Assembly: GCA_001794195.1 (NCBI GenBank)
Contig: MGJI01000022.1
Coordinates: 3,564 to 35,971, forward strand
Length of the DNA stretch: 32,408 nucleotides
Direction of reading: 5' to 3'
From: Candidatus Yanofskybacteria bacterium RIFCSPHIGHO2_01_FULL_44_17
GTDB lineage: Bacteria; Patescibacteriota; Minisyncoccia; 2-02-FULL-40-12; IGHO2-01-FULL-4-A
This document shows, piece by piece, positions 20,149 through 28,634 of this stretch. Numbering within the stretch: the first letter of the stretch is position 1; each line of letters begins with the position of its first letter. The position numbers and the translations under genes are program-made. Below the pieces are notes generated by a model, which worked only from the letters and a program-made list of their open reading frames with translations, did no database searches and was not told where the DNA came from.

Positions 20149-21207
20149 TTAGGCTTCACGGAGAACGTATACACCATCTCCCTTTTTTTCAAAGGTTTTG
20201 GGATCCTGCAGATTCAGCAATATAGTATTTTCTTTTACTAAGCGATGCGATAAAACTTGGGCCACTATGTCTTTTTTATGAAGTGGCTTGTTGGATAAGC
20301 GCATCAAATCTATTATAACATCTTTTACTGTCCCCGCCTTATAGCCCCAGTCAACCAAACCATATAAACCACGTCCTACCAAGACAAATCTCTTGTCTTT
20401 TATGAGCTCATTATGAACTGTCTGAACATTGGCTCTCCTGCCATCATTAAAGGACGCTGAATTTATAAGCTGCGCAATCTCTCTGAAATGTTTGGGCTTA
20501 CCATCGCGCTTAAGCACTAAGAAGGCCTTGTCTCTGACTCCGCGCGGCTTAATATCCGGCCAACTAGTCAAACCAACCTGGCCGAAATTATTTTTAGCTA
20601 TGTTTTTAGAAATTGAAAGATAAGAATCAACCACAGCCGAAGTAACGTCCTTAAAAGAGGCTCCGGACTTTTTATAAAATTCTACTAAGGCCGCCTCTGC
20701 TATCGGTGTCTTTTCTTTATTTAAAGAAGCGATGAAAGAAGACATTGAATCTCCGAACGATTCGGCGTGCTGTTTAGAAAGAGACCAAAAAGTATTAAAA
20801 TCATCGTCCTCGGCAAAACGCTGGAACTTGCTATCAAGAGAAAGAAAGAAAACTAAAGCGGCATTCGCCGGACTTTCCTTAGCAATGCCCGAAAACTTAG
20901 CAAAAAGATGCTCTTCTCTGACAGATCCACCGCCCTGTTCCAAGATGTTCTCGGCAAGGTTAACAAAGGGCTTGATCTTGGCTACTGATCCGGAATCAAA
21001 GCCCTCTCTTATTTGTCGCAGAGAAACCTCTTCAATCTGCCTGACTCGCTCGCGCGTAATGCCGTAGCTCTTACCTATTGATTCAAGGGTTTCTTTCTTG
21101 CCGGTCTTCAAACCAAAACGGCGAGAAATAACATCCTTATTTCTAGTATTTAAAACCGAAAGTAACTGTCCGACCACTCCCCTGATTGAATTATTTAAAT
21201 TTGGCAC
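20149..21207 (-). CDS. Sigma-region-4 plus HARE-type winged-helix regulator
   Basis: A 352-aa protein joining two DNA/RNA-polymerase-related modules. Residues about 22-70 match sigma-70 region 4 (VISRRFGLKTGKKETLESIGKSYGITRERVRQIE), the part that reads -35 boxes. Later segments (PKHFREIAQLINSASFND..., VHNELIKDKRFVLVGRGLYGLVDWG, and the C-terminal KKDIVAQVLSHR) look like HARE/RpoE-delta winged helices. No sigma region 2 is present, so it cannot melt promoters by itself. It may be a polymerase-bound regulator. It starts with GTG, with a good promoter (TTGACA-N17-TATATG) about 90 bp upstream. Confidence 0.8.
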   Translation of the reverse strand: MPNLNNSIRGVVGQLLSVLNTRNKDVISRRFGLKTGKKETLESIGKSYGITRERVRQIEEVSLRQIREGFDSGSVAKIKPFVNLAENILEQGGGSVREEHLFAKFSGIAKESPANAALVFFLSLDSKFQRFAEDDDFNTFWSLSKQHAESFGDSMSSFIASLNKEKTPIAEAALVEFYKKSGASFKDVTSAVVDSYLSISKNIAKNNFGQVGLTSWPDIKPRGVRDKAFLVLKRDGKPKHFREIAQLINSASFNDGRRANVQTVHNELIKDKRFVLVGRGLYGLVDWGYKAGTVKDVIIDLMRLSNKPLHKKDIVAQVLSHRLVKENTILLNLQDPKTFEKKGDGVYVLREA

Positions 21208-25752: not shown

Positions 25753-27207
25753 TTATTCTGGCAGTTTCTCCCTCGAAACCCTGGGCTTCTGCTTATCCAA
25801 CCACTCCTTTATGAAAAGCGTGGCGCGGACGTCGTCTTCGTTGTATTTGACGATTTTGTTCATGATTTTTTGATCGCCGGTTTTGAGCCAGTCGTTATAC
25901 CAAACAACAGACTCGGCTCCGCCGGCGTCCTCCGCCTCCCACTTGAATCCAAGATATTTAGCCACATCTTTGAGACTGTAGAAATATATGGGCAAAACCG
26001 CAGCCTCAATGAATTTCCAATGCAAATCAATGGTATTATTCTTGAACTTATCGTCAAGTGCTATCGAAATGCCGTATTTGTTGCCCAGCCGCCTGAAAAC
26101 CTCTCTTTCATAATATGAGTAGTGATAAATTACAAAATTTTCCAAAGACTCAAGGAAATCCAAAAACTCCCGCCAAACCCTGGCTTCATCTTCTTTATCT
26201 TTGGCCCAAAAATACTTATATTCCGCTTCTTTCCCCGGCTTCTTAATAATCATCCCCAGTAAGTAATCAATGCCATCGGTAGGATCAGACTCAATATCAA
26301 AATATATTTCATTCTTAACTTCAGGAAATTCGCTTTTCTTGAGAATCCTCGGCTCATTAGAAATCAAAACTTGCGCCTGATTATAAAAACGTAAAATCTT
26401 ATCAAACGGCCAATCCTCAAGTCGGTAGCGCAGATTATCAAGATCGGCAGACGCAAGATCCTTAACCGTATGAATGCCCAGATCGTAAAATCTACGCTGA
26501 TCATTCTGGCTCAGTTTATAGACGAGCGAAATATCATCACATTCTTTAGCCTCTTCGGTACAAAGCGAATACCACGGGGACTGCTTGCAGCCGCTCTTGA
26601 GAAACGGGGGCGGCTTTTCGCCAGCCAACACCTGTTCAATCCTATCTTTTGTAAGATGGAAATAGTCAAGAAAGTCATCCACCATAAAAGATCTTTCCTC
26701 GCCATCGGAATTGATTATATAAGCATCTCGCGGCAAAACGCCCTGTAACCGTTCAAGAATTAAACTATAAAAAACTAACTGAAACTTATATTCATCCCTT
26801 ATTTCTTTACCAGTTTTTATGTCGTAGACAACGTAGTAGTGATCGCCGAAGTTAGACTTCATTCCCTTCTCAACCGGTCTTGCCTCAAGCAGGTCGGGAA
26901 TACCAACCCAATTTTGGTCCATTAAAACGCCATGATAGATATTCTTGCCCTGTTTCATCATTTCCATCGTTGTCAGGAAGGCTTCATCGAGATCGCGCAT
27001 AAGTTCCGGCTTAATCTCCTCAAACTTGCGGCCCTTGATCATTTCACGCTCATGCTTGAGTCCACCCTTATGTATCATCTGGATCAACGGCGGTATCTCG
27101 CCCTTCTTTGTCTGGTCGCCATAGATGTCATACCAAATCCAATGTGGACACTGGAAAAATTTATAAAAATGCTCCCCTGTTAATTTTGGTTTTTTATTTT
27201 CTGGCAT
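25753..27207 (-). CDS. TM0106-type nuclease: Cas4-like RecB domain plus DEDD exonuclease domain
   Basis: A 484-aa two-domain nuclease (numbering follows the 486-aa track ORF). The N-terminal half has PD-(D/E)XK motifs: GIPD (D107), YDIKT (D131, K133) and QLVFY (Q145, Y149). Four cysteines (C22, C209, C218, C225) are placed as in Cas4 proteins that hold an Fe-S cluster. After a helical linker the C-terminal half starts with YFDIESD (D306, E308) and ends with YNEDDVRAT, typical of a DnaQ/RNase H-like 3'-5' exonuclease. The track begins at TTG; the ATG is at 27207. A palindrome matching the one before the Cas2-like gene lies about 64 bp upstream. Role likely in DNA processing or defence; not proven. 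Confidence 0.85.
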   Translation of the reverse strand: MPENKKPKLTGEHFYKFFQCPHWIWYDIYGDQTKKGEIPPLIQMIHKGGLKHEREMIKGRKFEEIKPELMRDLDEAFLTTMEMMKQGKNIYHGVLMDQNWVGIPDLLEARPVEKGMKSNFGDHYYVVYDIKTGKEIRDEYKFQLVFYSLILERLQGVLPRDAYIINSDGEERSFMVDDFLDYFHLTKDRIEQVLAGEKPPPFLKSGCKQSPWYSLCTEEAKECDDISLVYKLSQNDQRRFYDLGIHTVKDLASADLDNLRYRLEDWPFDKILRFYNQAQVLISNEPRILKKSEFPEVKNEIYFDIESDPTDGIDYLLGMIIKKPGKEAEYKYFWAKDKEDEARVWREFLDFLESLENFVIYHYSYYEREVFRRLGNKYGISIALDDKFKNNTIDLHWKFIEAAVLPIYFYSLKDVAKYLGFKWEAEDAGGAESVVWYNDWLKTGDQKIMNKIVKYNEDDVRATLFIKEWLDKQKPRVSREKLPE

Positions 27208-27270
27208 AAGCAATAGTTGATATGACCTCAGTATATAATTAATTCTGCCGAAAAGCTAATAACTAATTTT

Positions 27271-27306
27271 TGTCGCTCCTAGATACGATCGTATTTAAAA
27301 GCGACA
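27271..27306. promoter_or_regulatory. Palindromic operator-like site 2
   Basis: A 36-bp imperfect palindrome with a perfect 12-bp core ATACGATCGTAT and perfect outer arms TGTCGCT/AGCGACA. It lies between the Cas2-like stop and the TM0106-type nuclease start, upstream of a possible TATACT -10. Its halves align without gaps to site 1. Confidence 0.8.
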
Positions 27307-27825
27307 TTAGCTAAAATATCTTTTGACAGCTGCCTCTCTCCCGCCCAAAGACTCCGCGACAACAACACAGACGTACTTACTAATCGCCAATAACCTTACC
27401 AACTCTTCAATGTCTTTCTCACAGGCATAACAAGTTACATAAACACTCTTTTGCAGTTGGTAGCATTCCCACTCATTCAGTTTGCTGCGAAGTAAGTCTC
27501 TGGCAGCCCTCTTTTCTTCCGGAATATCAAAAATAATTACGCGCCACCGACCGTCACGTTTTTTATTTTCTATTTTAAGTTCCTCCAGTTTGGCAAAATT
27601 GATATATTTATATCCCTTCTCCGTAATAACTGCTTCGACCCCATTTGAATACTTGATAAAACCACGTCGCTTTAGTGCGTAAAGTTTGCGACTAAGAACA
27701 GTTTTATTCGGAAAAAGTTTAGATCTTATTAGGTTTTGCTTAAATGTACTTTTAGGCAAACCACCATAAAGTCGGCGTTCAATGGCATCAAGAATACCGT
27801 AATTTGGATATTTGCTGTACCTCAT
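27307..27825 (-). CDS. PaaX-like regulator with Cas2-like C-terminal domain
   Basis: A 172-aa protein. Residues 1-85 form a winged helix (LSRKLYALKRRGFIKY, then VITEKGYKYI). Residues about 93-172 have the Cas2/PaaX ferredoxin-like fold: WRVIIFDIPEEKRAARDLLRSKL, then YQLQKSVYVTCYACEKDIEEL. The Asp in FDIPE is where Cas2 nucleases have their metal-binding Asp. PaaX-family proteins are dimeric repressors, and the dimer symmetry suits the perfect palindrome 12 nt upstream of the ATG, so it is probably self-regulated. It is flanked by two Cas4-like nucleases; no cas1 or CRISPR array is seen. Confidence 0.8.
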   Translation of the reverse strand: MRYSKYPNYGILDAIERRLYGGLPKSTFKQNLIRSKLFPNKTVLSRKLYALKRRGFIKYSNGVEAVITEKGYKYINFAKLEELKIENKKRDGRWRVIIFDIPEEKRAARDLLRSKLNEWECYQLQKSVYVTCYACEKDIEELVRLLAISKYVCVVVAESLGGREAAVKRYFS

Positions 27826-27836
27826 TAAATCTCACG

Positions 27837-27878
27837 ATTTGTCGTCTTTAAATACGATCGTATTTAAAGACGACAAAT
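27837..27878. promoter_or_regulatory. Perfect 42-bp palindrome (operator-like site 1)
   Basis: Perfectly self-complementary with no spacer; centre AAATACGATCGTATTT, outer arms TTTGTCGTC/GACGACAAA. It sits 11 bp before the Cas2-like ATG. Site 2 repeats the same 36-bp layout. Most likely an operator for the PaaX-like dimer; a cruciform or processing site for the nearby nucleases is possible. Confidence 0.85.
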
Positions 27879-27913: not shown

Positions 27914-28612
27914 TCACTCATTACGATGGCTGGCCCAAGCACAATGCTGGCACTCTGCGCCTGACTGTGGTGGGGTATCTGAACGGGCTAATTGAACGGC
28001 ATTGGCAAATAGATCGTGAATATAAGTCGGGTCGGTTGTTACCTCGCGAATTATACCTCGAAATGGCAAACGACCCCTAAAACCATCGGTTTTATCTACC
28101 TGATAAAAAACAAAAAAGGCCTTGCCTGCAATTTTATAACCGGACTTATCCAGTATGTGAGTATAGGTATCCATCTGCATTTGATAATCATCATAAACTG
28201 AAATTTCTTTGGCACCAGATGACTTATAATCAATCACCGCAAGCGAGCCATCATTGAACTCCAGCATATCATCAACCGCACCGAACAATGTCGCGTCGAG
28301 TTCTTCGTCGTGATATTTAAGGCCTTCGAAATTATTGCGCCATTTCTGAAGTTGGACGTGATCAGGATAAAGATGCGCCTCAGACATGCCATCGTGATCA
28401 ACTAAGACAGGATGCATCTCTCCCCTTTCACGGTACCCATCAAACTCCGCCTTCAGCAATTGGTCTACTGCGATTGATAATGTATAAGGATAGCCCTGGG
28501 GACGGCCAATACCTTGGTGCTTATACATCCAAAAACAACGAGGGCATTCCTTCATAAGCTGAATATTCGCGCGCGATATTTTTAACGGTTTTGAGGTACG
28601 TACTATTGACAT
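27914..28612 (-). CDS. Cas4-like PD-(D/E)XK nuclease
   Basis: A 232-aa single-domain nuclease. Cysteine pairs CPRC (C23, C26) and CQHC (C221, C224) at the two ends could hold an Fe-S cluster as in Cas4/AddB. The catalytic core shows GAVDD (D114), VIDYKS (D128, K130) and QMDTY (Q146, Y150), matching the RecB motifs. Likely an exonuclease on DNA ends. Its start codon lies inside the spacer region of a strong opposite-strand promoter for a candidate RNA; a TATATA box ends 4 nt before the ATG, so it too may be leaderless. It lies upstream of the Cas2-like gene. Confidence 0.82.
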   Translation of the reverse strand: MSIVRTSKPLKISRANIQLMKECPRCFWMYKHQGIGRPQGYPYTLSIAVDQLLKAEFDGYRERGEMHPVLVDHDGMSEAHLYPDHVQLQKWRNNFEGLKYHDEELDATLFGAVDDMLEFNDGSLAVIDYKSSGAKEISVYDDYQMQMDTYTHILDKSGYKIAGKAFFVFYQVDKTDGFRGRLPFRGIIREVTTDPTYIHDLFANAVQLARSDTPPQSGAECQHCAWASHRNE

Positions 28613-28634
28613 TGGTTATATAATTTGCTATAAT
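28606..28634 (+). promoter_or_regulatory. Exact consensus sigma-70 promoter
   Basis: TTGACA (28606-28611), 17-bp spacer, TATAAT (28629-28634), predicting a start near 28641. Full 6+6 matches are rare and usual for stable RNA genes. It overlaps the start of the divergent Cas4-like gene. Confidence 0.85.

Follow-up and report, generated by a model that had tools for sequence, protein, structure and literature searches.

Why should a small gene in a patescibacterial genome stand between two copies of a long palindrome? The question is raised by a 32,408-nucleotide stretch of Candidatus Yanofskybacteria bacterium RIFCSPHIGHO2_01_FULL_44_17 (GenBank assembly GCA_001794195.1, contig MGJI01000022.1, positions 3,564 to 35,971 of the forward strand), hereafter the window. 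It contains a perfect palindrome (P1), a gene encoding a 172-residue protein with a winged helix (wHTH) and a Cas2-like domain, and a quasi-palindromic partner (P2). In this study, we compared this arrangement with related loci across the Patescibacteria. We consider that P1 and P2 probably mark, as a pair, the two ends of a mobile cassette with a single gene. Its organization resembles that of repetitive extragenic palindromes (REPs) and their REP-associated tyrosine transposases (RAYTs), but the protein predicted to bind the palindromes is an unrelated one with a Cas2 fold.

P1 (ATTTGTCGTCTTTAAATACGATCGTATTTAAAGACGACAAAT; 27837..27878) is exact and spacerless over its 42 bp. It holds a 36-bp dyad, TGTCGT..ACGACA, centred on CGATCG, and forms the upstream end of the cassette, 11 bp 5' of the start codon of the Cas2-like gene (27307..27825, minus strand). 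P2, a quasi-palindrome of 36 bp (27271..27306), lies directly 3' of the stop codon and forms the downstream end, so that the whole palindrome-gene-palindrome unit measures 608 bp (27271..27878, minus strand). The 21-bp arm of P1 is the longest in the window; none of 100 first-order Markov simulations of the window gave an arm longer than 10, and the number of such palindromes expected in the window is 9e-9. P1 is therefore far beyond chance. The arms of P2 are 86% complementary over the reported arms, and P2 is 82% identical to P1, with the same centre. These results agree with the original prediction, made from the letters of the window, that so long and perfect a palindrome was unlikely to arise by chance and that its half-sites recur on the other side of the gene. 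A simple scan scored P1 as terminator-like on the plus strand, as would be expected if the repeats were generic palindromes, that is, terminators or non-functional repeats lying near the gene by chance. No RNA family of Rfam was matched near the cassette.

We found that the association between palindromes and gene extends throughout the phylum. Related genes occur in 102 of 286 Patescibacteria genomes, with up to 11 per genome. Matched repeats were sought within 200 bp on either side of 114 family genes with usable flanks (a few genes being represented twice), at a local score of at least 17. A pair was present at 78 of the 114, versus 4 of 227 other open reading frames (ORFs) of the same loci; at a score of 20, the pairs numbered 65 for family genes and 3 for control ORFs. 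When the search was widened past misplaced start codons, 10 of the 36 failures gained a pair. De-duplication left 111 genes, 73 of them with a pair fit for further analysis; in two loci (L147 and L151) the downstream flanks are not fully scorable, an N gap beginning in or near the repeat. The repeats vary from gene to gene but agree inside each pair; L006, L014, L080, L089 and L098 are perfect or near-perfect examples. Within the 73 pairs, 57 are direct and 16 inverted, and palindrome-flanked genes are found in all main branches of the tree. Thus, the proposed tie between the palindrome pair and the PaaX/Cas2-like gene holds phylum-wide, most such genes having their own matched pair. The scarcity of pairs at control genes, together with a conserved core at the repeat centre and the existence of copies inside genes, makes an origin as generic palindromes scarcely credible. 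At some loci (L079, L020/L075, L033 and L139) the repeat is present in three or four copies, spaced about 65-170 bp from one another in short arrays on the upstream or the downstream side of the gene.

A dyad profile over 130 copies defines the plan of the repeat, which spans 36 bp, with 18 bp per half. Complementarity is 89-97% at dyad positions 0-2 (the CGR half of a CGRYCG core), 68-78% at the AT-rich positions 4-9 and 76-90% at positions 10-17, which form element-specific outer half-sites, and it falls to 48% at position 18. The centre reads CGATCG, CGGCCG or CGGTCG in 52 of 73 cases. The median dyad centre lies at -32 from the start codon for upstream copies and at +30 from the stop codon for downstream copies. 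Mismatches show no G-U bias (73 GT/TG, 55 AC/CA and 250 other). A self-complementary centre without G-U bias is the pattern expected of a symmetric dimer on double-stranded DNA, and the geometry suits a protein that would bind in this way. These data also bear on a function at the RNA level, in which transcribed hairpins would flank the mRNA and the Cas2-like domain would act as an RNase, in a toxin-antitoxin system or in autoprocessing. The invariance of the Cas2-type aspartate (motif FDIP) in the family speaks in its favour. However, the strongly complementary centre would form the loop of an RNA hairpin, where pairing is needless, the interior positions tolerate about 22-32% mismatches, and neither the mismatch spectrum nor the Rfam search points to RNA. 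We therefore regard this explanation as very improbable.

Comparison with related genomes revealed two empty sites. In the window, the cassette is situated between a gene for a Cas4/RecB-like PD-(D/E)XK nuclease (27914..28612, minus strand) and one for a TM0106-family RecB-like nuclease (25753..27213, minus strand; TIGR03491, 335 bits against a cut-off of 97). Four relatives (G001, G002, G003 and G006) keep the block of peptidyl-prolyl isomerase (PPIase), Cas4-like nuclease and TM0106 nuclease at the orthologous position without the cassette. Their Cas4-like neighbour is 75-83% identical and, in the relatives holding both nuclease genes, the TM0106 neighbour is 80-89% identical. In these four genomes the nuclease genes are 2-14 bp apart, with no PaaX-like gene between them, whereas about 700 bp separate them in the source genome of the window (G000). 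The source genome also carries a second PaaX/Cas2-like gene, on contig C21, whose product is 27% identical to the first over 119 residues. This gene is likewise bracketed by a spacerless pair of another sequence, namely a perfect 44-mer centred on CATATG and a quasi-palindromic partner. Here the gap between ligA and gatC amounts to 760 bp in the source genome versus 10 bp in the same four relatives. In another genome (G004), the same ligA-gatC junction is occupied by other DNA, which is about 790 bp long and contains a G+C-rich palindrome of its own (L183). Elsewhere in the family, the cassette pairs L006/L022, L014/L017 and L014/L022 encode proteins that are 69-83% identical, and the pairs compared have no flanking genes in common.

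Copies of the palindrome also exist away from the gene. In pattern searches, on which the genome-wide counts rest, the core of P1 and P2 was found at six places in the source genome, two flanking the Cas2-like gene and four solitary. One solitary copy, a perfect 38 bp, lies between pgk and a DHH-family gene, about ten bp before the latter (C29); a half copy upstream of dprA runs into an N gap (C19); and the remaining two stand in frame inside an O-antigen-ligase gene (C7) and inside tgt (C16). The two in-gene copies share one reading frame (V-A-x-x-x-D-R-I) and, as read from the sequence, each has lost the TAA that a consensus palindrome would place in this frame. The original prediction had held that palindromes lying away from the regulator would speak against it, and such copies do occur, two of them inside coding genes. 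The insert in tgt falls within a loop of which G003 and G006 have a shorter version. The tgt genes of G002, G004 and G007 (L062, L064 and L065) carry, in the same variable loop, apparently different hairpin-like or palindromic inserts, and this loop may possibly be an insertion hot spot for unrelated palindromic elements. None of 57 related genomes holds the core at up to one mismatch and, hence, the repeat sequence is species-specific among the genomes sampled. In viral contigs, a 19-mer of the core was nowhere matched exactly and no relatives of the protein family were found; three of these contigs contain an 18-bp half-site as an exact match. No tblastn match was obtained in plasmids and phages.

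A comparable distribution was observed in a second genome (G162), where seven copies of the core of one cassette were found. Two of them flank its gene, one precedes another family gene, and four are solitary, with no family gene within 1.5 kb. The outer arms of these copies differ, yet they are self-complementary in nearly all, which indicates that the symmetry is maintained copy by copy. Runs of N start in or near palindromes at L038 (source genome, C19 near 28399), as they do downstream of the gene in L147 and L151. Palindromes may thus break assemblies, in which case the copy counts would be lower bounds.

The position of the repeats relative to promoters is informative about regulation. 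Upstream copies overlap promoter-like sequence in the gene direction in 36% of cases, versus 14% in the reverse direction and 5% in shuffled sequence, and for this reason autoregulation at the upstream copy is likely. Downstream copies show no such enrichment (15% in the gene direction versus 17% in reverse). The original prediction was that one protein controls both itself and the downstream nuclease. The first part accords with the promoter overlap. Control of the nuclease does not find support, given that the nuclease pair exists without the cassette in four relatives, that downstream copies lack promoter enrichment and that the next gene is convergent in 22 of 73 cassettes. A broader alternative is that the protein is only a regulator, an autorepressor with one operator over its promoter and another after the gene, where it would allow looping or act on the following gene. 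The gene of the regulator would then spread by ordinary horizontal transfer, and the solitary copies would be regulon sites. The wHTH domain, the similarity to PaaX, the upstream promoter overlap and the solitary copies located just 5' of genes (those before the DHH-family gene and upstream of dprA) all fit such a regulator. On the other hand, it does not account for the behaviour of the downstream copies, nor for solitary copies within the coding sequences of tgt and the O-antigen ligase, and it leaves the insertion of palindrome, gene and palindrome together into gaps of 10 bp and 2-14 bp unexplained. Altogether, we think it rather unlikely that regulation is the whole function.

What kind of protein is encoded by the cassette? 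The 172-residue product passes the threshold of the PaaX_M family (PF20803; 76.2 bits against a gathering cut-off of 24), which is matched by 30 of 30 family members (E<=0.01). It fails the NCBIfam PaaX equivalog (TIGR02277; 21.5 versus 264.55 bits), and PaaX_C finds no match in the window protein and a match in 1 of 30 relatives. It also falls just under the Cas2 cut-offs of Pfam (PF09827; 22.0 versus 23.8 bits) and NCBIfam (TIGR01573; 19.6 versus 24.5 bits). The curated cut-offs place it in the PaaX_M domain family and count it neither as a PaaX equivalog nor as a CRISPR Cas2. In an AlphaFold2 model (pLDDT 87.6), residues 1-84 form an N-terminal winged helix with MarR/DtxR matches (Z about 10). 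The C-terminal domain (residues 92-172) matches Cas2 5xvn_E (Z 9.0, rmsd 2.3, 77 aligned residues); residues 93-166 match Cas2 6jhz_A (Z 9.3, rmsd 2.8, 71 aligned), with the ferredoxin-like fold of Cas2; and both domains together (residues 7-172) match Escherichia coli PaaX 8a39 (Z 9.8). Five residues, F99, D100, P102, R109 and S127, are invariant in a 30-member alignment. They belong to a signature, FDIP...QKSV, that resembles strand 1 of Cas2 and the motif after it. As a hint of DNA cutting, the invariant aspartate is suggestive only. No transposase domain was recognised by Pfam in the protein, and Y1_Tnp (PF01797) is absent from the Pfam matches of the protein and its relatives.

These features can be brought together in the following model. 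The winged-helix and Cas2-like protein, acting as a symmetric dimer, would recognise its own family of 36-bp palindromes through the conserved CGRYCG centre and the element-specific outer half-sites, and binding at the upstream copy would probably also repress the promoter of its own gene. The comparisons above show that the cassette enters intergenic gaps as a whole and that lone palindromes of its family lie at other places, some of them in frame within coding sequences. Its spread would be driven by the protein or its complex and not by a system of the host. A bolder version, which we put forward tentatively as possible rather than probable, gives the wHTH-fused Cas2-fold protein the catalytic role in moving palindrome-bounded DNA. 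The cassette would then represent an undescribed class of mobile elements widespread in Patescibacteria, with a Cas2 relative engaged in mobility without Cas1.

Several observations weigh against a mobile cassette. First, the protein has no recognised catalytic domain of the transposase type and may be a regulator only. Second, neither an exact insertion boundary nor a target-site duplication is definable, because divergence between the relatives is too great and the cassettes are accompanied by some 20-60 bp of additional DNA that does not align. Third, the sister cassettes L011/L012/L013, L119/L108, L120/L127 and L131/L128 have both neighbours in common and are inherited vertically. Fourth, some family genes have no pair (e.g., L056, L057 and L015), and the second palindrome family of the source genome, that of C21, has no solitary copies there. 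Finally, the correlation between protein and repeat similarity is weak (Mantel rho 0.08, above the null mean and below the largest null value of 0.12), probably owing to fast evolution of the arms.

The orthologous cassettes illustrate how such arms evolve. The arms of L131 and L128, two cassettes that both neighbours place at one locus, are unrelated, but the CGGCCG core is kept on both sides, so that the arms of both copies changed together; the two proteins are 50% identical in the winged helix and 64% in the Cas2-like domain. In L127, the orthologue of L120, the two palindromes differ from each other outside the core, and thus likeness between the copies is not always preserved. In L011, the downstream repeat seen in the orthologous L012 and L013 is missing, which fits the loss of about 100 bp downstream of the stop codon.

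Two other features of the window deserve mention. A perfect sigma-70 consensus promoter (TTGACA-17-TATAAT with TG; 28606-28634, plus strand) is followed by a G+C-rich stretch with no evident gene and no Rfam match, and a gene at 20149-21207 (minus strand) encodes a protein in which a sigma-70 region 4 domain is joined to HARE-HTH domains.

The results of our study turn one odd palindrome into a phylum-wide pattern, in which about one third of the sampled Patescibacteria genomes have wHTH-Cas2-like genes and most of the genes examined are bracketed by palindromes. In the open literature searched, we found no report of palindrome-flanked PaaX/Cas2-like genes, and no paper there connects PaaX to Cas2, or Cas2-like proteins to both transposition and the Candidate Phyla Radiation. 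Among open papers on Patescibacteria, palindromes and mobile elements, none is on this subject as judged from title and abstract. The cassette has the appearance of a tiny mobile element of an undescribed kind. If the protein moves it, the Cas2 fold would serve in DNA mobility without Cas1, a point relevant to how Cas2 joined CRISPR, and the cassette would be a candidate model for the first meeting of Cas2 and palindromic repeats. If the protein is a regulator only, the family is still striking for paired operators able to change in concert.

Among known systems, PaaX shares with the cassette protein the PaaX_M Cas2-like domain and the two-domain architecture of the E. coli protein. Unlike PaaX, the cassette protein is about half as long, falls below the equivalog cut-off and has no PaaX_C match; its family has the Cas2-like FD(I/V)P and Q-x-S motifs, and no phenylacetate genes were noticed beside its gene. 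With Cas2 it shares a ferredoxin-like domain, the aspartate at the end of strand 1 and the QKSV motif, but it differs from CRISPR Cas2 in its fusion to a winged helix, its scores just below the cut-offs and its palindrome-flanked gene. Rickettsia palindromic elements are palindromic inserts within genes, as are the in-frame copies in tgt and the O-antigen-ligase gene; the copies described here are much smaller in size (36-42 bp), occur in low number and belong with a cognate gene. A classical insertion sequence has a known transposase domain, terminal inverted repeats and a target-site duplication; in the cassette no transposase domain was found, and the divergence of the relatives obscures its boundaries. 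A RAYT is a single gene flanked by two palindromic REPs with cognate repeats elsewhere in the genome, and complementary changes keep the REPs palindromic while their sequences are species-specific (PMC2817692). The cassette gene is also flanked by two cognate palindromes with copies elsewhere. However, RAYTs are IS200/IS605-like tyrosine transposases, and their two inverted REPs combine a GT(A/G)G head with an interrupted palindrome (PMC2817692). The cassette protein has no HUH/Y1 tyrosine transposase domain, the best cassette palindromes are spacerless with a CGRYCG centre, the pairs are mostly direct, copy numbers are low, and the sequence, as read, has no GT(A/G)G head next to P1 or P2. The only Y1_Tnp gene found in the source genome is on another contig (C6). 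The organization of the cassette is therefore closest to that of REP/RAYT units, but it is not one of them, because the protein superfamily, the plan of the repeat and its orientation all differ.
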